From Xiphophorus maculatus (Eukaryota > Chordata > Actinopteri > Cyprinodontiformes > Poeciliidae), in NCBI RefSeq assembly GCF_002775205.1, contig NC_036456.1:6401463-6465462 (forward strand): a stretch of DNA of 64,000 nucleotides, read 5' to 3'. The notes beneath the pieces were generated by a model. The model did not search any database, was not told the origin of the DNA, and was given only the letters and a program-made list of their open reading frames with translations. Positions 796 through 37,117 of the stretch are shown piece after piece (position 1 is the first letter of the stretch; each line of letters starts with the position of its first letter). Both the position numbers and the translations under genes were made by a program.

Positions 796-2995
796 ATGGG
801 TGGTGAGTAAGGCTTACCTTAAAATCTTTTACATTCAAATATTAACTATTTTAAAGATAAGGTTCCACTTTTTAGGTCTGCAATTTATAGACCCTTTTCA
901 TTAAGGCACTTTTCTGCATTTCAATTTTCTTTATGCTTAAAATGTGACTAAACACTGAGCTCTTCTCACTTGTCTCAGTCAAGATCAGAAATCAAGATCA
1001 AGCAATAAAAAAGAGTCTGGGCAAAATGGCATCCATTGCATGTCTCACATTTAAAAACCAAGAACTTCCTGATTATACCCTAAACCTTAGGGAACATTTT
1101 CTGGGGAGTGACAAAAAAAAAGTACACCGTTTTGTTGTGTGTGTGTTCTGTTACATCTGATGTTAAGCTACAACAATCTTTCCCAAAAGGAACATTATTG
1201 CTAACCGTCAAACAAGTCAGGCCGCTAGCTGTTTTAGTGTTTGACATATTAAGTCGACCAATCAAAGACAATACTTACTGTAACTGCACAGCTGCCCCAG
1301 AAGAAAAAGTGAGTAAAGTCTGACTTACAAAGCGGGGCTTTGGATACGTCTTTGTAAAATGTATATTTGCTTAATGGCTTCCTATTTTAAAATAAATGTT
1401 TCACTGTCTTCTAAGTTTCCCAGATTTGTGAAATCTTTCTAATTTAAGATTCTTTCAGTTTAACAATTTTCCGATAGTCCATTATTGTTATGTAGTTTTC
1501 ATTGTCAACCTATTATCATCGTCTATACTCATAGTGCTTTTGTATTGTATAAAATATATTTTTGTATTAAAATTAATTTCAATATAATAACCAGTACTGG
1601 GCACATTACTTTTAAAAAGTAATTAGTCACTAGCTATTTTTTTTTCATAAAAGTAGCTGTAACAATTGTATTGCTTAAAAATAACATGCTAGAATATGTT
1701 AAACTATTTTGGATCCTCTCTTACTAGAACCCTAAAATATATGTTCACACGCAGCTTACACAGGAAGCAAAATACGATTAATCAACATTGCTCTCGTTTT
1801 GGTTGCAGCACCAATTAGAATGGTCCTCCTGGGAAAAACCGGATCTGGTAAAAGCAGCCTGGCCAACACAATATGCGGAGACCAGCTGTTCACCACCAAC
1901 CACACGATCAACTCTGAAACAAGCCACTGCAAAGCCATCACCAGGTCCGTCAGTGGGAGAAACCTCACGGTCATCGACACCCCGGGTTTCTTTGACACGG
2001 ACCGGCCGGAGGAGGAGCTGGAGCCTGAGATAGTGAGGTGCCTCGCAGAGTGCGCTCCTGGGCCCCATGTGTTCCTCATTGTGCTCAAGGTGGAGAAATT
2101 CACAGAGCACGAGAAGGCCGTCATCGAGAAAATCTGCACGTGCTTCTCTGAGGACGCTCTTAAATACGCCGTGGTGGTGTTCACTCATGGCGACCAGCTG
2201 CCTGATGGGACGCAGATTGAGGAGTTAGTCGGGCGCAATAAGCTTGTGAGTGAACTGGTGAAGAAGTGTGGCGGCCGCTGCCTCGTCCTGGACAACAAGC
2301 ACTGGAACAATAAGCATCAGGACGAATACAGGACCAACCCGTTCCAGATGGAGAGCCTGCTTCAAACTATTGACACGTTGGTGACGGAAAACGAGGGCAA
2401 ATGCTACACCAATGACCTGCTGCAGGCGGCCGAGGAAGAAATAAAAGAAGAGGAGGAGAACCTTCGACTGGTCTCAGGAAACCTGCCGGATGCAGAGATC
2501 AGAGAAAAGGCCAAGAGAAGTGTTGCTGATAAACTCTTGATCAGATTTACGGGCCTTGGCGTTGGCGTTTTGTTAGGGGCGATTTTTGGTGTGGTGTTCA
2601 TGGTTGGAGCAGTCCTTACTGTTTTACAGGAATCTTCGAAGCCAGTAAAGCTGAGGAACGTGGTGGAAGTTGCAGCATCAACAGGGATGGCATTAGGGGT
2701 AGGAGGAAAGGCAGTAGGGAGCTGTGTGGTACCAGCAGCGATGTTTTTGAGTGTAACAGCAGCATTTGCTGCAACGGGAGCTGTTAAAGGTGCTTTAACT
2801 GGATACGACGTGGCTGAAGAAGCAGCGACTCCAAAGGAAGCTGCATGGAAAACAGCAGAGGCTGTGAAGAATGAGGCGCAGGTTTGCTTAGATACGATTA
2901 ACCAGGGCTGGAACAAAGTTATAGAAACAAAATGTGAAAATTTAGAGGAGGACTCTTCTAGAAAAAAGAAGACATCTTGCTGTACTCTGATGTAA
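796..2995 (+). CDS. GIMAP-family (AIG1-type) GTPase, copy A
   Basis: Predicted two-exon gene. Coding exon 1 is only 7 nt (796-802, ATG GGT G, then a strong GTGAGT donor). Exon 2 is 1809-2995 after a TTGCAG acceptor. The join gives MGAPIRMVLLGK and a protein of about 397 residues. Seen: P-loop GKTGSGKS at residues 11-18, switch motif DTPGFFDT at 59-66, the GIMAP conserved box around 85-105 (FLIVLKVEKFTEHEK), and THGD at 128-131 in the fourth guanine-binding position. An acidic, probably coiled stretch follows near 200-235, then two hydrophobic Gly/Ala-rich segments that could span or dip into a membrane. The protein ends KKKTSCCTLM, which fits a CaaX prenylation box (CTLM) with an upstream Cys and basic residues. 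GIMAPs are immune-associated GTPases on intracellular membranes of lymphoid cells. A near-identical copy lies inverted at 35885-38728. The family call is secure; the exon 1 assignment rests on phase and splice signals only. Confidence 0.88.
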
Positions 2996-9436: not shown

Positions 9437-12400
9437 ATGGGTAATAGTAACACTCACCCCGTTTTCTTTGAGTGCTATAACCTTCATCAAGAGCAGAAGA
9501 TGGATATAACAAAATATTTTGACCACTGGACATCGAGCAGAAAAGGCTGTGGGTCACTGGAGAAGGTCTCTGACAGAGTTTAAGCGATCTTTTTCCAAAA
9601 CACAAAAGGTAGTAAAATGTTTTACATTATACAGATTCTACTTATTTCAAAAGTTGTTAAAAGTATTTGATTAGTTTGAATAGGCAATTCTAATTTGTCA
9701 AAGTAAAGGAATGTTTTCTTTCCAAAGTTACTGGTCATTTGAACTGCAATTTTAGATTTTTTATTTTTTTTTAATATGAAGTTTGTTTGAACTAAACCAA
9801 ACACAATGTTAAACACTTAGATATGTTGCTTAACAGTCAACTATTCCACACTATCTTTAATTATATAGATTTGAGAAAAAAAAACTTTTTTTCAAACCAT
9901 TTTGTTCTACAAACACTCCCCAAAAAGAATTTAATGAAACAACTAAATAACTGTGTGAATGTTTCCTCATGTATGTGTTTTCACATGGCAAAACTAGCCT
10001 GATCATGAGTTTCTTGATCTCTGATTGTATTTGACTTTTTGCAAAGTTGTAGATGCTGATGAACTAGTAATATTTAAAAACTATTTTAATATTTCTTCTT
10101 CCACTTCCACTGATTTGGGAGTGTGATGTTCTTATATTTAACAGGAATGTAATTTGTACTAGCTACTGTTGCTATTATGTACATTATGGTTTAGATCAGC
10201 AAGCAGTCCTTAAGAAATCAAAGCATGTTGTGGATCTCAGAGATGGCCGTTGTCTCACTTTGACAATCGAAAGCAGTTTGGAAGCTGCCACATCACCTGT
10301 CAACACTTTATTGACAGCAGCTCCAAAGGTCAGATGACATTTAGATTAAAATGTGACTGAAACTTGTTTTGGTGGGGGTGGGGGAAGTAGAGGGAGAAAC
10401 TGAAAGTAAAATTGTAATCATTGCATGTTCTTGTCTCCAACACAGAGCTTAAACCTCCTTCATGCCTCAAGTGCGCTACCAAGATGTAAAAAGTGTGAAC
10501 TAGACTTTAACAGACTCCTGATAGCTAAAATAGAGGCTGCCTCTCCACTGCTGGAATTTTGTCATATTTACCCAGAGGAGTCAAATATTTTAGCCAGAAG
10601 AAAACTATTCAATGCCGTGCTTACAAAGACATTGCATTGCAAAATTGAGAAAAACAATGATGAGGTTTTGACATTCCATCATAAGAAATCCACTGACAAT
10701 GTTAAAGCATGTCAGACCACAGAGGATGAGGATTACAGCTCAGGTGGGAAACATTGTAAGGAGGACGTAGATGTAAATTCATGGTTAAATGAGAACTTGC
10801 CATTTATAAGTATGAGGGAAGGAAGCACAGTTGTAGTATACAATGTTCTAAATAGACTCCAGGTGACAGTGTGTTTGGGTGACATCACCACACTGGATAC
10901 AGACACTATGGTAAACATTGCAGGGGAGGATTTAGACCACTGTGACAGAGTTTCTGCCTTTTCAGAAACATTTAGGTCCAAATCTTTAACCATGCCCTTT
11001 CACAGTACAGGTGTGTTTGGTGTTCCTCTTAATATTTGCTGTGAGGCTATAATAAGGGCTGTGAAGGAGTTCAGCAGTCAGGGAGGACGAAATGTGTGCA
11101 GAATCATTCTGATAGACAACAGAAGGCATGTTGTGAGGGCCATGCTGGAAGTGTGTGACAGGCTTCTACACGGAACTAGCGACAAAGACAGTGCATTGAG
11201 GCGTGTGGAGGTCCAGATGGATGTTGCTGACCGACAACCAGAGAGACGAAACGAGGCTGAAGGTGGTGGAAGTGGCGTTCATGTTGAGATTGTTCTGGGG
11301 ACTATCGAGACTCAGGAGGTGGGAAATATTTCAGTTTTATGTCTTTCCGTGTTCAGAAGGATCATTTGATGGTGCAAATCTTTATCAGCTGATAGGGAGT
11401 AGATTGCAAATAAAACTAAATAAACCTCCAATAATCTCCAATGTTCCTCTTCTAGGTTGATGCTGTGGTTTCTCCCATGGTTGGCCATAACCCTCTATCT
11501 TCAAGAGTTGGGATTGCTTTGAACCAAAAAGCTGGACTGCAGTTGGTCTCAAGATTCAGGAAGGATGCAGGGGACGAGTCCATGCCTGGAGACTTAGTGC
11601 TCTTGAGGGGAGTACCTGGACTTTCATCTGGAGCTGTTTTCTTTCTCAACCTTGTTCCATGGGATGGTGATGAAGATGGAACTGCAGTTCAGGTGAAATA
11701 CAAACATAATGCTTAAAAAAACTCTATCTCCTTGTGCTATGTTGATCCATTAAAGTGATACAGACTGCAAGTTGTGTATATCTTTATTTGAAAGGTTCTC
11801 AGATTGGCCATCAGCAACATCCTGACGTCCTGTGAGAGGAGAGGGTTTGAATCTGTTGCAGTTCCCGTACTTGGAGCCGGGAAGGTCTTGCGCTTTCCAG
11901 ACAATGTGGTATCCAAGGTTTTATCAGAGGAGATCCATTCCTTTGAACGGAATCAAGGCAGCAGCAGACCACTCTTGGTTCGGATTGTCTTACAGCCCAA
12001 TGAAGCGTCCAGTCAGGTAATAAGGGGAGACTTCATGGAAATAAGATGATGAAATAAAGAACAACCCTTTATTATTACCTATTACATAAGAATGTAATCA
12101 AATAAAATGGTTTGAAAGGCACACTAAAAGTTTCTTTAAAGTCCGGTCCTTAATTATGTTTGAATCCATTATTTCCAAGCATTTAGATGATAAATTTTAT
12201 CATTAAGGACACAACGTAGACACAACACAGATAGAGAAAGTCATATATAATAGTGAATTTCAGATACAATGATTGTCATTACATGAAAGCTCAAACAAGG
12301 TATTTACATTTTTTTCTTGCTGTCTGATATTACTTCAGTTGAAATGTAACAGGATAAATGTTTCAAGCCTACATGTATTGTAATTTTAGAAAATCCAAAA

Positions 12401-15400
12401 TCTATCCATCCATCCATCCATCCATTTTCTCCCACTCATCCAGGGTCGGGTTGCAGGTAGCAGCCAATGCTAGTTAGGTAGCTAACTAGTTGAGCCAACT
12501 CCTCCAGGGGAAACCCAAGACATTCCCAGGCCAGCTGAGAAACATAGTCCCTCCTCTGGAAAGACCTAGGGTATTAAAGTCCAAAATGACTCTTTCTTCA
12601 GCCTGACACCATCCCTCACCGTTGGTGTCCACCAGTAGGTTCAAGAGTTGCCACCACAATATGCACGACACTCTTGTGGCCACAGCTCCAATAGGTTGTC
12701 ATGATGTTGGAGGTGCAGTACATGGTCCACTCAGACTCAATGTCTCCCACTTCTCCTGGAACATGTTCGAAGTTTTCCTGGAGATGGGAGTTAAAGCTCT
12801 TTTTCATGAGACTCTGCCAGACGTTCCCAGCAGACCTTCACAACACGTTTGGGCCTGCCAGGTCTGACCGGCATTCTCCCCCACCATCGGAGGCAAGTAT
12901 AGTTCAGTGGACAGCTCTGCACCTCTCTTCGCCCGGGTGTCCAAGACATGCAGTTGCAGATCAGATAAAGTGACAACAAAGTTGATAATTGAACTGCAGC
13001 CCACGGTGTCCTGGCGCCAAGAGCACATATGGGCACCCCGACCCCTGAACATCGTATTTGTTATGGACAATCCATGATGAGCACAGAAGTCCAACAACAG
13101 AACACCACTCGGGTTCAGATCAGGGGGATCATTCCTCCCAACCACACCCCTCCAGGTATCACTGTCATTGCCCACGTGAGCATTGGAGTCCTCCGGAAAA
13201 ACACTCTCCAGTACCCGCTCCAAGGACTCCAAAAAGGGTGGTGCTGTTTGGTGGATAAGCACAAACAATCAGAACCCATCCCCACCACATGTAGGCAGAG
13301 GGAGGCTACCACCTCATTCACAGGGGTGAAACCCAACATACAAGCACCAAGATGGGAGGCAACAAGTATGCCCACTCCAGAGTGAAATATAAATGTTTCA
13401 AGCCTACATGTATTGTAAGTGTCTCAGAAAATTTCTCTTGGAGAAAGGTTCCAGATCTAGAGCCATGTGTTGAGTTCAGTCTGACTATTTCAAGTTGGAA
13501 CCTCTCAACCTCACAAACCAGTCTGAGCTGGTGTGTGAGGTCAATGTCACCACAGAGGTGACGTTGACCTCACACAGGTGACATTCCATATCCAAAGAGC
13601 CAGCTTCTTTAACCGACTATCAGACCACCAAGGTTACTGCCTTTTGACAATACCCATCACACATTGCACCGACCCTTTGGCCCACCCCACAGGTGGTGAG
13701 TTCATGGAAGGGGGACTCATGTCTCTTCTTCAGGCTGAGCCTCACTGTCCTTCATGGGTGAAAGCCAAGCGCTCACCAGAGTGCCCCACTTCCAGCCCTA
13801 GCTCCAGAGAGGGACCCCAGTGACATTGATTGAGAACAATGATTGTACTCATCATAAGGAGTCTTTGGGGTGAAAGTTGTCTGGTCCCTTACATAGGACC
13901 CGTTTGCCCTGGGTGACTCTACTAGGGGCTTGAAGCTCCTGACCGCATAGCTCCTAGAATTACTGGAACATTCAAATCTCTCCACCACCGTAAGGTGGCA
14001 GCACAGGGAGGGAACTGTAAATTCAGTGTCTCAGAAAATATTATATAAAAAGTAAAACCAAACAATACCAAAAACTCACGGTGTGACAATAAACATAAAC
14101 TCCTTCAGGATGTTCAAAGTATTTGTTTGATTTACTTGTATGGATGATCTACAATTTCTTTACAATCATAATAATTTGTTACTTAATATGGATTGCAATT
14201 ATTAAACATTGATATCATTTTATATAACTAATAATGTAGTAATGATTAATAATTACTCTCTATCTTTTCTAGTGCTGCAGAAGCATCGAGAACCAGTTGC
14301 AGCAGTTGTTTACCACACTGGACAAGGCTGCAAAGAAAGCAAGAGGAGAATACAACCACAGTGCTTCTGCGAATGTTTGGATCAAATTAACAGGGACCAC
14401 AGACAGTTCAGTGTCAGACGCTTTATTTGGCTCAGCTCTTGTAGCTTTGCAGGCAGCAAGAAAAAGTGTAAACATCAAAGGAGCAGGAGAAGACAATGTA
14501 GCAGATGGAAATGAGGCAATAAAAAATGGACTAGCTGGGAGAGAAGGAAATTCTAAAAGCAGACAGTTTGGAGGAATTTGGTATCCAGCATTAGGAGCAT
14601 TAGGTGGAATTATGGGTGTAGCAGGAACAGCAGGAGTAATAGGTGGGGCACTGAGTTCAGGGGTTGCAGGAATAGGAGGAACAGGAGGCACAACTGGTGG
14701 AGCAACAGGTGGAGGAGGTACAGGTGGAGCAACAGGAGGAGCAAGCAGTGGCGGAGCAACAGGTGGAGGAGGTACTGAAGGAGTAACAGGTGGAGGAGGT
14801 ACAAGTGGGGCAACAGGTGGAGGAGGTACTGAAGGAGTAACAGGTGGAGGAGGTACTGGAGGAGCAACAGGTGGAGGAGGTACTGGAGGAGCAACAGGTG
14901 GAGGAGGTACTGGAGGAGCAACAGGTGGAGGAGGTACTGAAGGAGTAACAGGTGGAGGAGGTACAGGTGGAGCAACAGGTGGAGGAAGTACTGGAGGAGC
15001 AACAAGTGGAGGAGGTATGGGTGGGGCAACAGGTGGAGGAGGTACGGGCGGAGCAACAGGTGGAGGAGGTACGGGCGGAGCAACAAGTGGAGGAGGTACG
15101 AGTGGGGCAACAGGTGGAGGAGGTAAGGGTGGAGTAACAGGTGGAGGAGGTACGGGCGGAGCAACAAGTGGAGGAGGTACGAGTGGGGCAACAGGTGGAG
15201 GAGGTAAGGGTGGAGTAACAGGTGGTTGTCGCACTGGTGGGGTAGGAGCAACAGGTGGAGAAGCAACAGGCATAGCAGAAATAGGAACAGGGGTGGAAGG
15301 TGTAGCTGCAGCAGAAGCTACAGGGGGATGTGTTGCTGCTGCTGTTTCTGCAGAAGCAACAACAGCTGGAGCTGCAGAAATAATATCTAAAGTTGCAGCT

Positions 15401-15688
15401 ATGACATCTGGAGGAATAATTGCATTAAAGTTAACAATTGATACGATCATATGGGCTAAAGACATAATTTCTCAAATTTCTAACTTTATCAATGACATAA
15501 AGCAGCACAGCAGAGAAATACTCCTTGTGATTGTTTTTTACTTACTGCTACTGGTATCATTCTTTCTCAGTGTAAATGTTGAAATCCTCTTGTCATTTGT
15601 TTTACTGTTTTTGTTTTCAGTGTTGGTGTTGCTGGTCCTTGTAATTCGTGAGAACAAGCTAAACCAACAGAGGGCTAAATCAAGTTAA
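9437..15688 (+). CDS. PARP14-like RRM/macrodomain gene, stop codon in exon 1, glycine-repeat membrane tail
   Basis: Proposed exons: 9437-9608, 10204-10328, 10446-11318, 11456-11692, 11795-12016, 14273-15688; all joins are in phase. Exon 1 ([16 protein letters not shown]...) and exon 2 ([15 protein letters not shown]...) resemble the N-terminal RRM of fish PARP14-like proteins. Exon 1 carries an in-frame TAA at 9581-9583 in the middle of that domain. Exon 3 ends in a shortened first macrodomain ([24 protein letters not shown], with the glycine-rich ADP-ribose loop missing). Exons 3-5 hold a better-preserved second macrodomain ([18 protein letters not shown] ... [21 protein letters not shown]). 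Exon 6 encodes an Ala/Gly-rich stretch, about 20 nine-residue glycine repeats, and two C-terminal hydrophobic helices. No ADP-ribosyltransferase domain is present. Linking exon 6 to the macrodomain exons is inference: phase 0 to phase 0 across a 2.2-kb intron full of LINE sequence. The full-length reading is probably dead; a shorter product starting downstream is possible. Confidence 0.62.
12388..13390 (-). mobile_element. RTE-type LINE fragment (endonuclease region plus 3' end)
   Basis: Minus-strand reading gives LINE endonuclease sequence around 12804-13268 ([37 protein letters not shown]). The 3' end carries an (ATGG)n-type tail (CCATCCATCC on the plus strand, about 12405-12424). Most of the reverse transcriptase is deleted. 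The piece is flanked by a 30-bp direct repeat (starts ATAAATGTTTCAAGCC; about 12354-12387 and 13388-13417). It lies in an intron of the PARP14-like gene. Confidence 0.75.
13431..14026 (-). mobile_element. Second LINE fragment (5' part), flanked by 14-bp repeat
   Basis: Sequence between two copies of GTGTCTCAGAAAAT (about 13417-13430 and 14027-14040). On the minus strand it matches the 5' region upstream of the endonuclease in the same LINE type. It lies next to, and in the same orientation as, the fragment at 12388-13390. The two may be separate insertions or parts of one rearranged event. Confidence 0.55.
14690..15240 (+). repeat. Coding minisatellite, 27-bp unit, about 20 copies
   Basis: Tandem units of the type GGAGCAACAGGTGGAGGAGG(T)... 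encode the nine-residue period GGATGGGGT with variants [18 protein letters not shown] and [11 protein letters not shown]. The frame stays open throughout, so unit changes have kept multiples of three. The reverse strand gives long proline/leucine-rich open frames that are only shadows. Confidence 0.9.
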
Positions 15689-16476
15689 AACAGCTATAAA
15701 ATGCCACAGCATGAGAATCACTGATTTATTCAGAGGAAGTTTAAACGGGCAAGATGCTTTTTATTAGTATGTTTAAGAATTTCATAATAGACTAAATTAT
15801 ATCCAATAAGACGACCTATGTGACACAACATCGGACCCAATTTCGAAAGGTGCAGTAAATCAGTAACAAGCATGAAGAGATTTTTCTTAATGTGTGAATG
15901 TCTAAGAGAGTCCTCCTTAAAACTAAACTGAAGTCTTTAGGTCTTTATAGTGTTGGCAAAGTCAAAAGCTACAAGGGACACAGCCAAGATGCAAAATGAC
16001 TTTTTATATATGCAAGATTTCAGTGTTTTGTTCAAAATCAATGTTCTACAATCTGTTTGTATAATGAAGATGAAGTAAAAGACAAACTAGCAGTAACAAT
16101 GTAAAGATGTTCATGATTATGAAAGTAACAAATTTCTAGTTAGTAGATATACTTTAGTTTTGGAGTCTGTGTTTAGTAATTAATTTTGTTCACTTTCCAT
16201 TTACTTTAGCAATTTATTGGTCAGTTATTGGTTCAGAGTGGTAAAATGTTCTCATGAGTTTTCCATGTTATTACATAATGTTTATTGCAGAATAAAGTGA
16301 TTTTTAGAACGTAGATCTTAAAAGAAAAGTGTTTCCAGCATGGAAGCTGCATATACTTACTAATCAATATAGTTTTATTCTCTCAATTAAATCTGAAACA
16401 CCGTCTTACTCTGCCTGATTTTATTTGTGGTGCTTTTGTTTCACATTTCAGTCTAATTTGAAAATGTTTGATAAGT
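15689..16476. other. 3' flank of the glycine-repeat exon, no gene
   Basis: No coding signal. Parts around 15860-15960 (AGCATGAAGAGA..., TCCTCCTTAAAACTA) resemble 20690-20760, so the local duplication includes this flank. AATAAA-like motifs occur (for example near 16290), so the 3' untranslated region may lie here. Confidence 0.5.
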
Positions 16477-16938
16477 GAATAGAGAACTTTAGAAAAGTTT
16501 TGCTTTCAGATAATCAAGATTCAGACATTTTATTCCCAGTAGATACTCTCCATGTTTGAAAGAATCTACTGATATTTGTTGCAGAGGATTTTAATGTTTA
16601 TTGTTTAAACTTGTCAAGAAAACCCGAGATCATCCCACTTTCACATGCTGGAGATTTTAGCTAAACAGTAACAATAAATAAAGTTACCTTTAAAATTAAT
16701 CACACAAGTGACATCTAGGCCCAACAGTAGACTTAAACTTCTATAAAATCAATCTGGTTGTGTGTGTGTTGTTTTTGTCTCCTGCAAACTTTGCTTTAAT
16801 TCTACTTCTGTTTTCTAATCATAAGAAATCATAGTCAGACAAAGTCATGAAACAGGAAGAGCAGGTTTCCTGGAAAGAAAGAGGAAGTAAGTTTCCAGCC
16901 TGAAGATTCATAAAAATAGTTGAGACTATTCCTTATTT
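16477..16938 (+). repeat. Large inverted repeat, arm A
   Basis: Reverse complement of 18337-18842 over almost its full length, with about 50 bp extra in the other arm. It includes AGGAAACCTGCTCTTCC (reverse) and a run around AACCCGAGATCATCCCACTT. It does not appear to code. Confidence 0.85.
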
Positions 16939-17040: not shown

Positions 17041-17810
<770 letters not shown>

Positions 17811-18336: not shown

Positions 18337-18842
18337 AATAAGGAACAGTCTCAACTATTTTTATGAATCTTCAGGCTGGAAACTTACTTCCTCTTTTTCC
18401 AGGAAACCTGCTCTTCCTGTTTCATGACTCTTTCTGTCTGACTATGATTTCTTATGATTAGAAAACAGAAGTAGAATTAAAGCAAAGTTTGCAGGAGACA
18501 AAAACAACACACACAACCAGATTGATTTTATTGAAGTTTAAGTCTACTGTTGGGCCTTGATGTCACTTGTGTGATTAATTTTAAAGGTAACTTTATTTAT
18601 TGTTACTGTTAAACTAAAATCTCCAGCATGGGGAAGTGGGATGATCTCGGGTTTTCTTGACAAGTTTAAACAATAAACCTTTACTTAACATATTTAGCTT
18701 TCATCTTAGATTATGTAAAACATTAAAATCCTCTGCAGCAAATATCAGTAGTTTCTTTCAAACATGGAGAGTATCTACCGGTAATAAAATGTCTGAATCT
18801 TGATTATCTGAAATCAAAACTTTTCTAAAGTTCTCTATTCAC
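18337..18842 (-). repeat. Large inverted repeat, arm B
   Basis: Reverse complement of 16477-16938. Its two ends recur in direct orientation at 22153-22253 and 22655-22793. Confidence 0.85.
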
Positions 18843-20021
18843 TCTGTCTGAAGTTACTCCTTTTAATCTAAAAAAGGCCCAGGTTTCAAATTCTTAATCT
18901 GATCTTGGAAGAAAGAAAAACATAAAAGATTTTATGATATTCTATGTTTACACTTTTGTTTTTCTCTTCACACAGCATGCTAGCAAAGCTGAACTTCTTA
19001 CTATCACTATTGTTGGTGTTTTTTTGGTTGTTTCTATATTTATAATCAAAAATAATTTCCCAGAGAACAAAAAAGCCATGTGAAGAGAAATTATTTTTAC
19101 AGGCGTCTGCGAAAAAAATGCAACGAATGGACATTCAATTTAAAATCGGTAGGCCTATCAGCAGCCAGAGTGGAAAAAAATATTCCTGTTCTGTGCCATT
19201 TTGTGACGTTAGTTGTTAAATATTGCACAAAATGACCAGATAAAAGATGTACAACAATACCAGATAAAACTTTATGCATAAAGACTGAGCTCTGCAACAT
19301 TAAAATATGGGTAGAACTGCAACTATATAATCATAACTCTCTACTCTTCAGTGTTTCTGTCAGTTTCTGATGGTGCAGCTCTGTGCTGCCTTCAAGAAAG
19401 TGGGACATCAGAGTATCATCCATAAAATTTCACTCACATGGCATTTACTGTGCAAACCAGAGCTTCAGTGAAAAAAAAAGTTCCAGATCTTTTTAATGCC
19501 GTATAAGCATGGGACAGAAACATGGATTATATCTTTATATAGACCTGTCTGTTGATTTATAGATTAATAGTTTTACTGGACATAAATTACAAAGAACAAA
19601 GCTGGTTCTTAATCAAAACCTAATGTGTCAGATTGAAAGTGTCATGGAGTCACTGAACAGCCTCATGATATTAACGTTGTCATAAAAAATAATATTGAAG
19701 AAATAAATCTATCAAATCTAATTAAAAACACAAATAAGCGATAAGCTCCCTATTACTGTTCTCATCTGTAAAATATATTTCTTCTTAGTAATAGATGTGG
19801 TCTCAACAAACTCATGGCACTTTGACAATATTATCGTATCTTTTATCTGAAAACAGAGTCTGTTTTTGACATACAGTCCGTTGTATTTATTATTGCTCAA
19901 AAGGTCTTGCCGTACCACTTTATTCCTCTTTACTTTAATTTCTTAGCTTATTCTTACATTTTGTTCTTCCTTCATTTCCATTTAGTTTTCTTTTATTAGT
20001 ATTGTCCTCTCTTGGTTTATT
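18843..20021. other. No gene seen
   Basis: AT-rich sequence with only short chance open frames. The first ~65 bp (to the GGAAGAAAGAAAAAC motif) recurs at 22730-22793; the rest is unique within the window. Confidence 0.5.
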
Positions 20022-20580
20022 ATGTTCTCTTTAGTTTATTTCCTGTTGCTAGTTTTATTTTTTCTAAAAAATTCTAAAAGAGGACAGTTTGGAGGAATTT
20101 TGCGCCCAGCATTAGGAGCATTAGGTGGAATTATGGGTGTAGCAGGAACAGCAGGAGTAACAGGTGGGGCACTGAGTTCAGGGGTTGCAGGAATAGGAGG
20201 AGCAGGAGGAACAAGTGGGAATGGTGGTACAGGTGAGGCTGGAGGAGCAACAGGTGGAGGAGGTACAGGTGGAGCAACAGGATTAATAGGAGAACAAAAA
20301 ATGCCACCTGTGCCAAGGTTGATACCTGGAGGGATACATAAATTAAAAGAGATGATTCAAAAAGTCAAGTGGGCTGCAGGCATAATTTCTCAAATTTGGA
20401 ACTTGACAAACAACATAAAGCAGCACAGCAGAGAAATACTCATCGCGATTGCTTTTTTACTTACTGCTACTTGTATCATTCCTTCTCAGTGTAAATACTG
20501 AAACCCTCTTGTCAGTCGGTTTATTGTTGCTTTCACTGTTCGTGTTGCTCATAATACATGAAAACAAAGGTCGTTAAAAT
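20022..20580 (+). pseudogene. Second, truncated copy of the glycine-rich/transmembrane exon
   Basis: From about 20066 the sequence matches the last exon of the PARP14-like gene ([18 protein letters not shown] against [18 protein letters not shown]). It keeps only two or three glycine-repeat units, then the region ahead of the membrane helices ([20 protein letters not shown]). Near 20451-20458 it has one extra base compared with copy 1. The frame then ends at a TGA (20499-20501) and the second hydrophobic helix is lost. Upstream of 20066 there is no homology, but the frame is open back to an ATG at 20022 that would give a very hydrophobic leader (MFSLVYFLLLVLFFL). This is probably chance. The 3' flank matches the flank of copy 1. 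Confidence 0.75.
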
Positions 20581-22084: not shown

Positions 22085-22793
22085 ACAAATTATTATTATT
22101 TTTAATCTGTGCATCAGGAGGCCTGCTTGTGCCAATCAACAATGTTTTTGCTGATTGGCACAATAAGGAATAGTCTCAACTATTTTTATGAATCTTCAGG
22201 CTGGAAACTTACTTCCTCTTTCTTTCCAGGAAACCTGCTCTTCCTGTTTCATGACTTTGTCTGAATTTAGCGTTTTATTTTCTTCGGGTGATTCAGAGTC
22301 ACCTCAGTCACCACAGTCACTGTGAAAACTAAAACATATACAAATATTAAAATACAAACATAAACTTACAATACAAACAACAAAACGTACCTCACTGCTT
22401 TCACTGGGGAACACTAATTGTTGACACAACGATTCTACCAGCTTTTAAAGGGCCTGCCCTCATTAATTACGGCAGCCCAAAAGGTACAAAAAAAAAAAAA
22501 AAAAAAACATTACAAAGTGCAAATACCATTAAATAAAACAAAAAAAAACAACAAAAATGCTAATCAAAACAGACAAACATCCATAAACAATCTGTGTCAT
22601 ACTTAATTTAGAAAATTCTTAATTTACTTTAAATAGTCTATCCGTTACAACCGGGAATAAAATGTCTGAATCTTGATTATCTGAAATCAAAACTTTTCTA
22701 AAGTTCTCTATTCACTCTGTCTGAAGTTACTCCTTTTAATCTAAAAAAGGCCCAGGTTTCAAATCCTTAATCTGGTCTTGGAAGAAAGAAAAA
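22085..22793 (+). repeat. Third, broken copy of the local repeat (arm B type)
   Basis: 22085-22253 matches about 18266-18430 (including the imperfect hairpin), and 22655-22793 matches about 18780-18905. The middle (22254-22654) is different sequence containing a poly-A run near 22490-22507. Confidence 0.75.
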
Positions 22794-23524
22794 CCCACTT
22801 GTGAGCAAATTAAAGTACAGTACAATTAGAGCACAAAAAACAATAAGTGATCAACAGTATCAAGATTAATACATAGATTGTCACCTTTCCTAGATAAGTT
22901 TAGATTTATCCATGCCATCTGTGTATGTGTGTATGTGTGCGGGGTGTGTGTGCGTCCAGGCGCAATAGTAAACACATACCTCTAAAGAAAACCTACAGTT
23001 TAACTGTTTTACTGCATTATTTATGGTAGCACGATTAGTCAGTGCTGACTATGAGTTTGTGATTTCCTTCATCACTCAAATTTTAAACTCTTATAGATTT
23101 TTTTTCTGTAACACTTGCTAGTACGATACATGTCAGTAAAAGTTCCTCATCTGTACATGTACTTCTTAAGAACATGTGACAGACAGTAAACAGGCCTATG
23201 TGAGGCTACTCAAATTTAACTTTGATTTTTCCACAGTTAAAGAATTTGTCCAGACTTTTCCAGAATTTGGCCCGGTATCATTGTGAATGATTTTGTTCAG
23301 TTTTTGTTTTCTTGCTGTTGAATCAACACTGATCTTCCCACTGCTTCATGCTTTCTCCAAAATAGTAAATCTTGGTTTAAATACATTTGAAACTCTCTTT
23401 TTTTCTGTAACACTTGCTAGTGTGAAACATGTTAGTAAAAGTTCCTCATCTGTAAATTTATTTCTGAAGAATATCTGACAGGGACAAAACAGGCCTCGGT
23501 GACGATACTTATATGTATCTTTCA
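22794..23524. other. No gene seen; small internal direct repeat
   Basis: Two similar stretches (about 23098-23190 and 23398-23490) share TTTTTTTCTGTAACACTTGCTAGT and AAAAGTTCCTCATCTGTA, so about 90 bp has been duplicated. A GT-rich patch lies near 22921-22950. Confidence 0.5.
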
Positions 23525-23962: not shown

Positions 23963-24030
23963 TAGCTTAGTGACTAATTTTGTTCAAATGTTTTGAAGAT
24001 CATAGTAATAAGAGACATTTTTGTCTTTTA

Positions 24031-24740
24031 GTGCGCAGAAAATTATGATTCTTGGACACACAGGATCTGGGAAAAGCAGTTTTGGAAACACTGTATTTGG
24101 AGAAGACAAGATCACCATCAGCCATAAGTCCAACTCTGATGAAAGTTCATGTGAAGCAAAAACTAAATCACTCAGTGGAATAGAAACCACTCTGATCGAT
24201 ACTCCAGGCTTCTTTGATACAAACACACCTGAAGAAAGAAATAACAAAATGTATCACAGTGTTCACCTGGTCCGCACGCTTTCCTCATTGTGCTAAAACT
24301 AGAAAAATTTACTGAGCTGGAAAACAAGATCATCGAACAAATAACCCACTATGTCTCTGAAGAAGTCTTCAACTTTGCAACAGTTGTTTTTACTCACGGT
24401 GATGATCTCCAAGAAAGGCTGGAAATCAAAGATTATGTGAGATCTAACCGGTTTTTGAGTGCATTAGCAGGAAAAACGTGGTGGTCGGTGCCATGTGATA
24501 GATAATAAATACTGGAAAAATCTCTCAGATGAGACGTACAGGAGCAACGCCCACCAGGTGAAAGAGATACTGAAATCAATTGAAGAGATTGTGAATGATA
24601 ACAATGGAAACTGCTACACAAACAAGATGCTGCAAAAAGTGGAGAAATGACACAACAGGAAGAGAAGCGTATTGCACTGTTCTCAGAAAATATGTCAAAA
24701 GAAGAAATCAGGCAGAAAGCTAAAAGCAGTGTGTGATATT
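24031..24740 (+). pseudogene. GIMAP-family pseudogene (N-terminal and GTPase part)
   Basis: It starts with a clear GIMAP GTPase (IMILGHTGSGKSSFGNTVFG, LIDTPGFFDT). There are frame changes at about 24250 (after NKMYHS), at about 24480 (inside GKT..GGRCHVIDNKYW) and near 24645, and a stop where the C-terminal part would follow (KSSV, then TGA). The frame pieces together cover the AIG1 domain and the start of the C-terminal helices. It lies just downstream of the Tc1 fragment and is cut off by an unclassified repeat. It is more diverged than the two intact copies. Confidence 0.88.
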
Positions 24741-24774
24741 TTAAATAAATATCATCCCACACACTGACCGCATG

Positions 24775-28212: not shown

Positions 28213-30101
28213 ATGCAGTGGACTCTGCTGCTGCTCATTTGGATGGGTGAGTGTCTCTGCATAAACTATGCTGCTGAACTTTTCTTAACATAATTTTCAC
28301 CCAACAGACCATGAGATGGTAACAAATATATATTTTGAATAAAATTATCATAAAGTCAGTAGAGTAATAGCCATACTGTGCTTTAAATCTCTGCTGTGAA
28401 TAAATCCACTGAGTATTTTCATCTGTTTTAGGTCAATATTGTGTGATTGTTTGTCAGCTGTATGAGTTTCACTACATTAATGAGAATAAAAACTGGACTG
28501 AAGCTCAGCAGTACTGCAGAGAGAATCACACTGACCTGGCCACAGTGACTAACATGAAGGACATGAAGAGACTCATCAACATCTCAGCTGGAGATTGGAG
28601 TGGAGCCTGGATTGGTCTGTATTATCAAACAGATGGTACCAGAAAGTGGCACTGGTCTGATCCTGGACTGGAGTTCAATGAAAGTGAGACAAACTGGAAC
28701 CAAGGAGAACCAAATGATGCAAATGGGTGGCAGAACTGTGGATTCATATGGAAGAGCCTGAAGTGGGGAGACCAGTCCTGTAATGATGATCGATATTTTC
28801 TCTGTTATGATGGTGAGAACATTTGAGTTTCCGGCTGCATTTTAATCCTGCATTTTGAAATTAAAATAATTATCAAAAGTAAGAGAAAGTTAGACAATTT
28901 AGACAACAAAATTATTAACTATATGTGATTCGGCTACTCCTTGTAACCTCTGAAGATTTTATTCTGTTATGAAAATATTTAGATAGACTGATCCTCACAA
29001 TTTTTTAATCACAGACAGTAATTCATCCAAGAAATTGTATTCTGGAGAGAAAATGTTTAGATAGACTGATGCTCACACTTTGATTCTCACACAGACAGAA
29101 ATTCATCCAAGAAATATCACTTGATTCAAGAAAAGAAAACTTGGACAGAAGCTCAGAGTTACTGCAGAGAGAATCACACAGACCTGATCAGTGGAACGAA
29201 GCAACTACAGGATGAAGAAGTGGAAAAAGAAACCAGCTCTGTGGGAAATGATCCATACATTTTTATTGGTCTGTTCAGAGAGAAATGGAGGTGGTCAGAT
29301 GGAAGCAGTTTCTCTTTCAGAAACTGGACAAAAGGGTTTGACTATCAGGTAGAATACAGAGGTCAATGTGCCATGACTGTGTTTGGTGATGGAGGCAGAT
29401 GGAGGAATGAGAACTGTAATGAGAAAAAACCTTTCATCTGTTATGATGGTGAGATGTTCTAATAAATATTCCCACAATAAAATAATTAATACTGTGTGAC
29501 AAAAAAACTGTCGAATCTATTCCTCTATCCATACGCAGTTTTATATTTGTGTTCAGAAAAAAATATTGAAGTAACTTGAAAATATGAATATGTTTACCTT
29601 AAATCATGAACGTACAAGACACTTGAAACTTCACAATGTTCTCCCAAATCACAGATATATTTTAGTTTTTCATGCTATATTTCATTGTTCTTGTTTATAA
29701 ATAACATCCTAAGACATAAAGTATGAATTATTTTGTTCGTTTCTGAACTTCTGACAGATAAAATGATCCTGATCAAAGAAGTGATGAACTGGGAGGACGC
29801 CTTGTACTACTGCAGAGATCATCACCATGACCTGGTCACCATCACCAACATGGATGATCAAATATGGATCCAGAAGAAAGTCAAGGAGGCATCGACTCCT
29901 TTTGTCTGGATGGGTCTGCGCTACACCTGCACTCTGGATTTCTGGTTCTGGGTCAGTGATGAGATGGTCAGATATAAGAACTGGGCCAAAGGTGAACCGA
30001 TGGACGACTGTGACATGTCTGGAGCCATGGAGACGAGAGGAAAACATCAGTGGTTTAAAAGAAATGATACTGAGAAGTTTAATTTCATCTGTTCTAAGTA
30101 A
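28213..30101 (+). CDS. Secreted protein with three C-type lectin domains
   Basis: Coding exons: 28213-28246, 28432-28812, 29095-29448, 29758-30101, all joined in phase 1. An untranslated exon probably ends at 27721 (GTAAGT donor), and the start-codon exon begins at about 28161. MQWTLLLLIWMG is a signal peptide. Each later exon encodes one C-type lectin domain opening with a W..A..YCR.NHTDL-type motif. Domain 1 keeps EPN (mannose-type sugar site) but has WGD where WND is usual. Domain 2 lacks EPN. Domain 3 has EPM and lacks the third conserved cysteine (WFKRNDTEKFNFIC). Calcium-dependent sugar binding is therefore doubtful for domains 2 and 3. No transmembrane helix follows; it ends FICSK. The exon-per-domain layout resembles fish mannose-receptor-like/lectin clusters. 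The product is extracellular; the ligand is unknown. Confidence 0.85.
28978..29115 (+). repeat. Tandem duplication at the acceptor of lectin exon 3
   Basis: About 75 bp (TTTAGATAGACTGATCCTCACA ... ACAGACAGTAATTCATCCAAGAAAT) is repeated directly, so two similar acceptor sites (about 29015 and 29094) precede the second lectin domain. Only the downstream one is followed by an open lectin frame. Confidence 0.75.
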
Positions 30102-30753
30102 AGGTCAGCAGTAGTTGTTTTTAGCCAAGTGTCTTTAGATCTGAACTTCCAGGGCTTAAATCTTTTTTTTTTGATTGAAGACAACATTTAATGTTAATTA
30201 AAACCTTTTATATGCATGTTGAGTATCTACATAATCAAAAGACACAAATGTATCAGCGTATGTCAATAAAGATGTAAATAAACCATAAAAGACCAAAACA
30301 GAAATGAACATCTTTGTGTTCTTTTCATTTTAATAAGACTCAGGCTGAGTAATTTGCTTTTGGTACATCAGTTCTTCTGCATTTATTCACATTCATCCCA
30401 ACTTTTAAGTTGTTCCAGAAGCTTCACATAAATTTTAAATATCAATTAATAAAAAACATCTGAAGTCAGATCTCTGAAAGATTGAAGAATATCTGAGAAG
30501 CAGGAAACTCTCTTAACCACATTTCTCTTATTAGCTTGAGAAAAGAGTCTGTTAGTCAAACTTCAAGTATGCAGAGAAAAATATCTGAAACAAAAATATC
30601 TGGTCTGTAATTTTCATGCCTGTATTTCATAATGAAAAGAAACTTTTTAACCAAGAAACGTTTGTGCATCTAAGGGTCCCAGAATGAACTGGACTCTGTT
30701 AAAGACATGAGTTTATTTATTAAGTTTTCCTTTAGCCTAACCTATTTTATGTA
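30102..30753. other. 3' flank of the lectin gene, no further gene
   Basis: AATAAA occurs near 30265 (GTCAATAAAGATG) and is a likely polyadenylation signal. The rest shows no coding signal. Confidence 0.45.
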
Positions 30754-33118: not shown

Positions 33119-33493
33119 AAGATGCGGTAAAAAGTGAAGGAAATGACACAATAAGAGAAGCGTATTGCCCAGTCCTCAGAAAATATGTCAAGAGAAGAAA
33201 TCAGGCAGAAAGCTAAAAGCAGAGTGAGTGATACTTTACATAAAGTAGCAGGTATTACAACAGGTGCACTGTTGGGAGCATTTTGTGTAGCTGTCACTGT
33301 TGTAGGAGCTAAAGAAATTACTAATGTAGCAGGTAGTAGAAACACTCTCCCTGATGGGACTAGCAGTTCCAGCTGCTGTAACAGGGGCAACATCTGTTGC
33401 TGCAGCTGAAACTTCTGGCGTCAAACCAGGAGCAGTAGGATTGGTTGTAGGTGCAGCTGTGTTTGGTGCATATAAAGGATATCAGGCTGCAGA
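33119..33493 (+). pseudogene. GIMAP C-terminal fragment
   Basis: Sequence from the helical and hydrophobic C-terminal part of a GIMAP (MSREEIRQKAKSRVSDTLHK, ITTGALLGAFCVAVTVVGA, then in another frame AVTGATSVAAAETSGVKPGA). It has a stop near 33150 and a frame change near 33340. It begins at almost the place where the 24.0-kb pseudogene ends, but the overlap (EGNDT/EEMTQ..EKRIA) is not identical, so it comes from a different copy. It is cut at the right by a hAT element. Confidence 0.82.
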
Positions 33494-35102: not shown

Positions 35103-37117
35103 GCTCCCTCTTGTGGTCATTTAGAAATTTACAGATGACAACTATCAAATTGTTAATCATACTGTATGCACATCTGGAACATTAATGTCATTTCCTACTT
35201 ATCTCTACTAATGAAATGACAAAATCTTCCTTCAAAGTTAATTTCATTCAAGAAACCCGAACAGTTTCCTTCAGTTTGACTGCAGTGTGAAGGTGGATCT
35301 ATTTATGCCTTTCAATTCTTGTAAAGGTTTTTATTAGAGTACAGCAATTGTTCTTTTAGCATTTCTTTCCATGCTCTCAACTCTAATGTGATTCCTTACT
35401 TTTGATTTCCTCACATTGCACAAATCATGACGTTCTGACCTGGATCAGAAGCAAAATAATCAACACATTCATCAATATTAATGAGCGTGACAAAGCCAGA
35501 AATGATTGTAAGCTTAAGTCTACACAGTAGATGACAGAGTAAATCGCAATACTCACACAGGCAATATTTTTAATTATAGTAATACATTTAGATAATTTCT
35601 TACACAAAATGTCCATCTGTCCATCAAAATTGTGAACTTTTTGACCTGGATAAATAAATGTAGATTTGAAATCACCACAGGAAACATGGAAAGATGTAAA
35701 GGCTGGACAATAAAGTAATATGACAAGAGGCTTAACAATCTCATCTATGTATGTTTTATTTTAACCAGATTAGTTTGACAATTTATAGTTAGATTCAATA
35801 AATGACACATCATCCCTCCTGTCCAGTTTCAAAAGATCCTTTAAATGTTAACCAGAATAATCCACACAGCCAGTAAAGATGATCTCAGTCAAGTTTGTCA
35901 CAAAGTAATGACTTCTCCTCCTCTGACTTTTCACATTTTGTTTCTATAACTTTGTTCCAGCCCTGGTTAATCGTATCTAAGTAAACCTGCGCCTCATTCT
36001 TCACAGCCTCTGCTGTTTTCTGTGCAGCTTCCTTTGGAGTCTCTGCTCCTTCAGCCATGTCGTATCCAGTTAAAGCACCTTTAACAGCTCCCGTTGCAGC
36101 AAATGCTGCTGTGACGCTCAAACACGTCGCTGCTGGTACCACACCGCCCCCTAGTGCCGTTCCTCCTACCCCTAATGCCATCCCCGCTGAAGCTGCAGCT
36201 GTTTTGCCCACCGCGTTCCTCAGCTTTACTGGCTTCGAAGATTCCTGTAAAACAGTAAGGACTGCTCCAACCATGACCACCACACCAAAAATCGCCCCTA
36301 ACAAAACGCCAACGCCAAGGCCCGTACATGTGATCAAGAGTTTATCAGCAACACTTCTCTTGGCCTTTTCTCTGATCTCAGCATCCGGCAGGTTTCCTGA
36401 GACCAGTCGAAGGTTCTCCTCCTCTTCTTTTATTTCTTCCTCGGCCGCCTGCAGCAGGTCGTTGGTGTAGCATTTGCCCTCGTTTTCCGTCACCAACGTG
36501 TCAATAGTTTGAAGCAGCCTCTCCATCTGGAACGGGTTGCTCCTGTATTCCTCCTGTTGCTTATTGTTCCAGTACTTGTTGTCCAGGACGTGGCAGCGGC
36601 CGCCACACTTCTTCACCAGTTCACTCACAAGCTTATTGCGCCCGACTAACTCCTCAATCCGCGTCCGATCAGGCAGCTGGTCGCCATGAGTGAACACCAC
36701 CACGGCGTATTTAAGAGCGTCCTCAGAGAAGTACGTGCAGATTTTCTCGATGACGGCCTTCTCGTGCTCTGTGAATTTCTCCACCTTGAGCACAATGAGG
36801 AACACATGGGGCCCAGGAGCGCACTCTGTGATGCACCTCACTATCTCAGGCTCCAGCTCCTCCTCCAGCCGGTCCGTGTCAAAGAAACCCGGGGTGTCGA
36901 TGACCGTGAGGTTTCTCCCACCGACGGACCTGGTGATGGCTTTGCAGTGGCTTGTTTCAGAGTTGATCGTGTGGTTGGTGGTGAACAGCTGGTCTCCGCA
37001 TATTGTGTTGGCCAGGCTGCTTTTACCAGATCCGGTTTTTCCCAGGAGGACCATTCTAATTGGTGCTGCAACCAAAACGAGAGCAATGTTGATTAATCGT
37101 ATTTTGCTTCCTGTATA
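35103..37117 (-). repeat. Inverted segmental duplication, right copy
   Basis: Reverse-complement partner of about 1757-4998. It lacks the 1.1-kb hAT insertion: the uninterrupted site is near 35139-35146 (CAACTATC on the plus strand). Confidence 0.85.

Follow-up and report, generated by a model that had tools for sequence, protein, structure and literature searches.

A candidate GTPase-less fusion of a PARP14-type macrodomain head with a GIMAP-type membrane tail in Xiphophorus maculatus

In a 64,000-nucleotide stretch of the Xiphophorus maculatus genome (contig NC_036456.1, here C14; the window is the whole stretch, C14:6401463-6465462, plus strand, and window position x corresponds to C14:6401462+x), exons that encode macrodomains of the PARP14 type are followed downstream by a long exon with a glycine array and a hydrophobic end. 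The question raised by this locus is whether both belong to one gene and, if so, to what kind of gene. Two sets of neighbours bear on the answer, namely three gene models called B, B2 and R, in which a similar head meets a GIMAP GTPase, and a GIMAP gene called G, whose C-terminal end resembles that of the window gene. We give a probability of roughly 0.55 to the reading that the window gene is a GTPase-less and probably decaying fusion of a PARP14-type head with a G-type GIMAP end, and that it belongs to a local fusion set. This reading is based on homologies, exon phases, open frames and relatives, from which the splicing of the window gene, its membrane site and its binding are predicted.

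The upstream half of the gene, the head, is made up of five exons.

9437..9608, plus strand: first of two RRM exons in the PARP14-type head (splice modelling; Pfam RRM_PARP14_1 with the stop codon read as X)
10195..10328, plus strand: RRM exon 2, starting in phase 1 (splice modelling, Pfam)
10446..11318, plus strand: exon 3, a linker and macrodomain 1, which is 70 internal residues short when compared with paralogue B
11456..11692, plus strand: macrodomain 2 exon 1, 237 nt, equal in length to B and B2
11795..12016, plus strand: macrodomain 2 exon 2, 222 nt long against 219 nt in both B and B2; donor CAG/GTAATA

The five exons join in phases 0,1,0,0,0, with AG ahead of the internal exons and GT behind each; the last three (10446-11318, 11456-11692 and 11795-12016) have AG/GT borders and are all in phase 0. 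The macrodomains match human PARP14 (PDB 3vfq) at an E-value of 3.7e-12, with PARP14 and PARP9 among the matches, and the Pfam Macro family is matched at 27.2 bits by the joined head and at 22.1 bits by macrodomain 2 alone (cut-off 22), macrodomain 1 alone giving no Pfam match. A preliminary description of this DNA had placed both an RRM and PARP14-type macrodomains between 10446 and 15688. The macrodomains are indeed found there, and the RRM lies outside, at 9437-9608 and 10195-10328, where RRM_PARP14_1 is matched at 8.7e-6 and 26 bits, one below the curated cut-off of 27. The description's statement that an ADP-ribosyltransferase domain is missing is supported: the catalytic and WWE exons of local PARP14-like genes have no tblastn match (E 0.01) in the window or the surrounding 140 kb. 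The PARP14-like genes that do possess catalytic and WWE-like exons are located near 6.05 Mb on C14, about 350 kb from the window gene. Between the window and B, macrodomain 2 shows 0.41 nonsynonymous substitutions per site (dN) and 1.01 synonymous ones (dS) over 152 codons, which indicates that throughout most of its past it was a coding sequence subject to selection. When macrodomain 2 was used as a query against the genome (own-genome searches covered 704 Mb in 101 contigs), all 11 matches fell on C14, two of them being the window's own exons, and 13 stretches around the cluster and around the other C14 matches of macrodomain 2 were taken for gene modelling. Viral contigs, searched with two queries, contained no relative.

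Three gene models, all less than 60 kb from the window head, have a GIMAP GTPase exon fused in frame to a head of the PARP14 type. B (C14:6359391-6352842, minus strand, loci L025-L026) begins and ends 42-49 kb ahead of the window. Its seven exons, with phases 0,1,0,0,0,0,1, comprise those for an RRM and for macrodomains 1 and 2, a linking exon of 76 nt (VFKSVQEDIKYNR...) and the GIMAP exon, and its stop-free translation of 1014 amino acids reads RRM-Macro-Macro-AIG1 (Pfam: RRM_PARP14_1 4.6e-10, Macro 5.5e-34 in two stretches, AIG1 2.6e-57). B2 (C14:6368698-6363306; AIG1 match 1.7e-55) is without macrodomain 1 and reads RRM-Macro-AIG1, its domains being taken from genome matches and from its likeness to B, not from Pfam on the protein. 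R (C14:6395600-6392698, minus strand, loci L029-L030) has an RRM, a 64-nt exon and then AIG1 (Pfam: RRM 2.1e-11, AIG1 2.5e-52). In all three models the junctions are AG/GT, the GIMAP exon is entered in phase 1 and its open frame holds no Met ahead of the P-loop. The phases of the window head are those of B and B2, and the series 0,1,0 is common to B, B2 and R. By their sequence, the three models are most simply explained as 5' halves of PARP14 joined to last exons of GIMAP genes, and model B probably matters more than the copy in the window.

These models would be artefacts if PARP14-like heads merely adjoined GIMAP genes that have their own, unseen first exons. Such adjacency is favoured by the expansion of both families in this genome, with at least 23 Macro and at least 125 AIG1 matches, both counts being lower bounds; among the matches listed, close same-strand Macro/AIG1 pairs were seen, as judged by eye, on C14 only. 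We nevertheless regard this explanation of B, B2 and R as improbable, since the phases agree in 3/3 models (about two independent cases, because B and B2 are recent duplicates), only ~0.9 kb separates head and GIMAP exon in B, and ~1.1 kb in B2, and the linking exon of B starts with VFKSVQE, which by eye and over a short stretch resembles AFKCTQ at the start of the exon that follows macrodomain 2 in the PARP14-type cluster.

The downstream half of the window gene and its surroundings comprise the following features.

12017..14272, plus strand: presumed intron with a fragment that we take to be a long interspersed nuclear element (LINE) endonuclease, and in which nothing was accepted as a counterpart of the small linking exon in B or B2
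14273..15688, plus strand: tail exon, a G-type GIMAP C-terminal module without GTPase domain by homology to gene G
14279..14365, plus strand: weak match, perhaps what is left of the final AIG1 helix (shuffle-tested alignments, profile)
14375..14443, plus strand: motif VWIKLTG...ALFGS, also at two places in gene G (profile of the two copies, G1+G2)
14696..15225, plus strand: array in which a 27-nt unit is repeated 19.6 times (GGATGGGGT; repeat analysis)
15437..15682, plus strand: two long predicted helices, a membrane hairpin with homology to the C-terminus of gene G
16291..16296, plus strand: AATAAA about 600 nt past the stop, a possible polyadenylation signal
20069..20568, plus strand: second copy of the tail, frameshifted, from which the long array and the first 92 codons of the tail are missing

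The tail exon is open in phase 0 from 14273 to 15688, and neither of the other two forward frames is open in its two non-repeat parts. Among base shuffles of these parts 1/50000 and 0/50000 stay open, as do 8/20000 dinucleotide shuffles of the first part; openness across the glycine array is no evidence, because its 27-nt period is divisible by three. Both the array, earlier put at about 20 repeats, and the earlier suggestion of a two-helix membrane end agree with these data, the latter by prediction: a hydrophobic stretch at residues 412-463 overlaps predicted helices at 389-432 and 436-470, which come from a single-sequence structure model with a mean predicted local distance difference test score (pLDDT) of 40.9. 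The exon has no match in Pfam, the AIG1 GTPase included. Matches of the tail to collagen and colicin were rejected as low-complexity glycine, and a match of its first 97 residues to superoxide dismutase (E 0.84) as chance.

The nearest relative found for this tail is gene G of the same gene cluster (C14:6381479-6383589, plus strand), which lies 27 kb upstream of the window head and encodes an AIG1 GTPase at 1.2e-43 in Pfam. After the GTPase, in one open frame, gene G continues with a WISLSG...FFGS motif, a hydrophobic repeat rich in Gly and Ala and a membrane hairpin, and the order in the window is the same. The C-terminal ends of the window tail and gene G align at 2e-10 without composition correction, with a score of 107 against a best of 77 among 5000 shuffles that kept polar and hydrophobic parts apart. 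For the motif, 0/2000 shuffles reach the alignment score against each of the two copies in gene G, and a profile of G1+G2 alone gives the window motif 20.3 bits, the best among the shuffles listed being 6.6; a profile search of open frames with W+G1+G2, which includes the window motif, is circular for those three and was excluded from the evidence. In gene G itself, one copy of the motif (W..[LI][TS]G...FFGS, about 40 residues) precedes the GTPase and a second follows it, and the motif matched no Pfam family in the part scanned. A search of the whole genome with the first 133 tail residues returned just the two window copies (2 matches, 3 candidates scored), and was too strict for distant relatives, since it missed gene G. 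By homology, the window tail belongs to the G type of GIMAP end and not to the type seen in B, and the exon looks like a GIMAP exon minus its GTPase. Two other origins were rejected: a wholly new protein is ruled out by the homology to gene G, and a version of B minus its GTPase by the lack of homology to B's tail. The preliminary description knew of no described protein with this layout and proposed, if the join is real, an ADP-ribose reader anchored to a membrane next to GIMAP GTPases. For the tail the novelty is not supported, the tail being a GIMAP C-terminal module as in gene G and the pairing of head and GIMAP recurring in B, B2 and R; the link to GIMAP holds, with the qualification that the tail is itself a piece of a GIMAP.

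Whether head and tail form one gene depends on the join of 12016 to 14273, which the preliminary description had proposed in phase 0 and which is still a prediction, a plausible one in view of its phase, its acceptor and the layout of the relatives. In particular, the join goes from phase 0 to phase 0, and the acceptor has 15/17 pyrimidines, the best of four compared. The main rival is that two neighbours have been taken for one gene, that is, a stand-alone macrodomain gene or pseudogene and what remains of the 3' end of a distinct G-type GIMAP gene after the loss of its GTPase part. In its favour, gene G carries the same tail without a macrodomain head (there is no match to the head in the 12 kb upstream of it), the window tail differs from that of B, a second bare copy of the tail stands at 20069 without any head, dN/dS between the two tail copies is 0.69-1.05, and the gap between the halves measures 2.26 kb and holds a transposon-like insert. 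This division into two neighbours is opposed by the tail frame, which is closed directly before 14273 and has its first Met at 14612, past the motif; by the search of 12017-14260 for an ATG exon with a phase-0 donor (six consensus-like forms tested), which found none; and by the three neighbours in which head and GIMAP exon are matched in phase. We judge it possible though somewhat unlikely, and prefer the fusion of head and G-type end.

Several observations weigh against the preferred fusion. The window tail is unlike the GIMAP tail of B (925/2000 shuffles reach the score) and unlike that of the window's own GIMAP gene at 1736-2995 (224/2000). Nor is there any likeness between the first part of the tail exon and the linking exons in B, in B2 and in the PARP14-type cluster (411, 910 and 1773 of 2000 shuffles, respectively), and a B-type linking exon was sought in the window intron and rejected at a best pairwise score of 27; neither the linking exon nor the phase-1 AIG1 exon of B, B2 and R was found in the window gene, whose tail is entered in phase 0. 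The putative AIG1-helix remnant stands at the expected place but is weak, 12/2000 shuffles reaching its score against B and 48/2000 against G, with 4/5000 for the first 30 tail residues against a profile of six GIMAPs. Pieces of GIMAP pseudogenes at 24012 and 33137 could instead be the head's former GIMAP exon. No site like an interferon-stimulated response element (ISRE) lies in the 1.5 kb ahead of the first exon in the window gene, in B or in B2. An in-frame TAA stands at 9581-9583 in RRM exon 1. Over three segments, dN/dS between the two tail copies is 1.05, 0.73 and 0.69, so that no clear constraint on the tail is seen, although this test is weakened by the frameshift in one of the two copies. 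A search of the whole genome with the first 133 tail residues returned just the two window copies (2 matches, 3 candidates scored), and was too strict for distant relatives, since it missed gene G.

The state of the head raises the further question of whether the gene still works. The TAA aligns by eye with a Tyr codon in B, B2 and R, and macrodomain 1 lacks, in one block relative to paralogue B, 70 residues that we take to include much of the ADP-ribose-binding loop region of other macrodomains, which leaves about one and a half macrodomains, one whole and one truncated. Given the stop codon in the RRM and the truncated macrodomain, the sequence suggests that the window copy is decaying, or that it has lost its N-terminus. 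The alternative is a working, membrane-anchored ADP-ribose reader, perhaps with an alternative start past the RRM stop, for which a candidate site exists.

10396..10405, plus strand: GAAACTGAAA, an ISRE-like sequence within intron 2, with exon 3 starting 50 bp further on

This is the sole strict ISRE-like match in the 64-kb window, which has 14 loose ones, and ISRE-like sites also stand upstream of R (GAAAGTGAAA, 116 bp before the ATG) and G, but not of B or B2. A working reader is further favoured by the frame from exon 3 to the end, which is open and without frameshift, and by macrodomain 2, which stands at or above the Pfam cut-off. It is disfavoured by the RRM stop codon, by the residues lost from macrodomain 1, by the first in-frame Met of exon 3, which comes only at 10812, 366 nt into the exon, and by a tail without clear constraint. 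We hold it to be unlikely. The membrane-anchored reader of the preliminary description is thus doubtful here as a working protein, because of the stop codon and the truncation. As an internal promoter element, the site at 10396 is no more than a lead.

If the preferred reading of a decaying, GTPase-less fusion is right, the local gene set would have come about when GIMAP exons were joined to the 5' half of a PARP14-type gene, which supplied the RRM and the macrodomains. In those relatives that keep the GTPase, the head would be followed by a GTP-dependent GIMAP switch; in the window copy, the macrodomain head would run straight into the GIMAP C-terminal module of motif, Gly-rich spacer and hairpin, the GTPase having gone. 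Macrodomain 2 may bind ADP-ribosylated targets, the glycine array could act as a flexible arm or spacer, and the hairpin would anchor the protein to a membrane inside the cell or to a lipid droplet. The window copy would then probably be decaying, or else give a shorter protein from an internal start. A wider proposal, namely a fish family that fuses PARP14 macrodomains to the GIMAP GTPase and thereby couples a membrane GTPase switch to the recognition of ADP-ribosylation, of which the window gene would be a member made of reader, glycine arm and hairpin under an internal interferon-type promoter, appears to us quite unlikely in this full form.

Other features of the region were noted beside these genes. 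Downstream of the head, on the plus strand, broken GIMAP pieces lie at 24012-24774 and 33137-33310, and one or the other may be the head's former GIMAP exon. Two near-identical GIMAP genes in opposite orientation (1820-2992, plus strand, and 35909-37054, minus strand) have a dN of 0.045, above their dS of 0.029 over 380 codons, which could be due to diversifying selection or gene conversion. A 0.5-kb sequence is present in inverted copies of 87% identity together with pieces of a third copy (16474-16937, 18337-18843 and 22087-22794); they stand around a piece at 17042-17425 that is presumably retrotransposon-like. At 28413-30104 on the plus strand, three successive open frames have what we take to be C-type lectin domains. 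Locus L024 (C14:6336861-6339188, minus strand) contains an open frame of 775 codons that ends in long GPASDSEPASES repeats, and long open frames are found on its opposite strand as well.

We know of no physical link between the PARP14-type macrodomain and GIMAP immune families, both of them expanded, and the literature searched showed none. In-frame fusion genes, if true, would be direct evidence that both families act in one pathway, and they would offer a natural construct for asking whether ADP-ribosylation steers a membrane GTPase. The window copy alone carries less weight, since it may be dead. No macrodomain-GIMAP fusion was found described in the open-access papers searched, subscription papers and protein databases being outside the scope of the search, and in the portions available of PMC8195603 GIMAP and macro-domain are mentioned separately and not as a fusion.

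Among known proteins, the antiviral mono-ADP-ribosyltransferase PARP14 (macroPARP) shares with the window gene the RRM_PARP14_1 start and a macrodomain pair that can be aligned to 3vfq. PARP14 has three macrodomains, whereas the window gene has one whole and one that lacks 70 residues, and the WWE and catalytic domains of PARP14 were not found in the window gene, which has a GIMAP-type end in their place. From GIMAP/AIG1 proteins the predicted window gene differs by the absence of the GTPase domain from its tail exon and by its PARP14-type head; the G-type C-terminal membrane module is not a defining feature of all GIMAPs. GIMAPs with a hydrophobic C-terminus have a two-helix end like that of the window tail, an example being GIMAP2, likened here by description, for which the source text available reports a 'double hydrophobic domain' at the C-terminus and a location at lipid droplets (PMC8201404). 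In Biomphalaria, AIG1 proteins carry extra domains (death, kinase, ARM and Hint) and, as here, stand in tandem arrays and are fused to other modules, with no macrodomain or RRM partner named in the available portion of that source (PMC7053062). The closest likeness is that to gene G, in which motif, Gly/Ala-rich repeat and hairpin are ordered as in the window gene, and which differs from it by having an AIG1 GTPase and, in the 12 kb upstream, no match to the macrodomain head.

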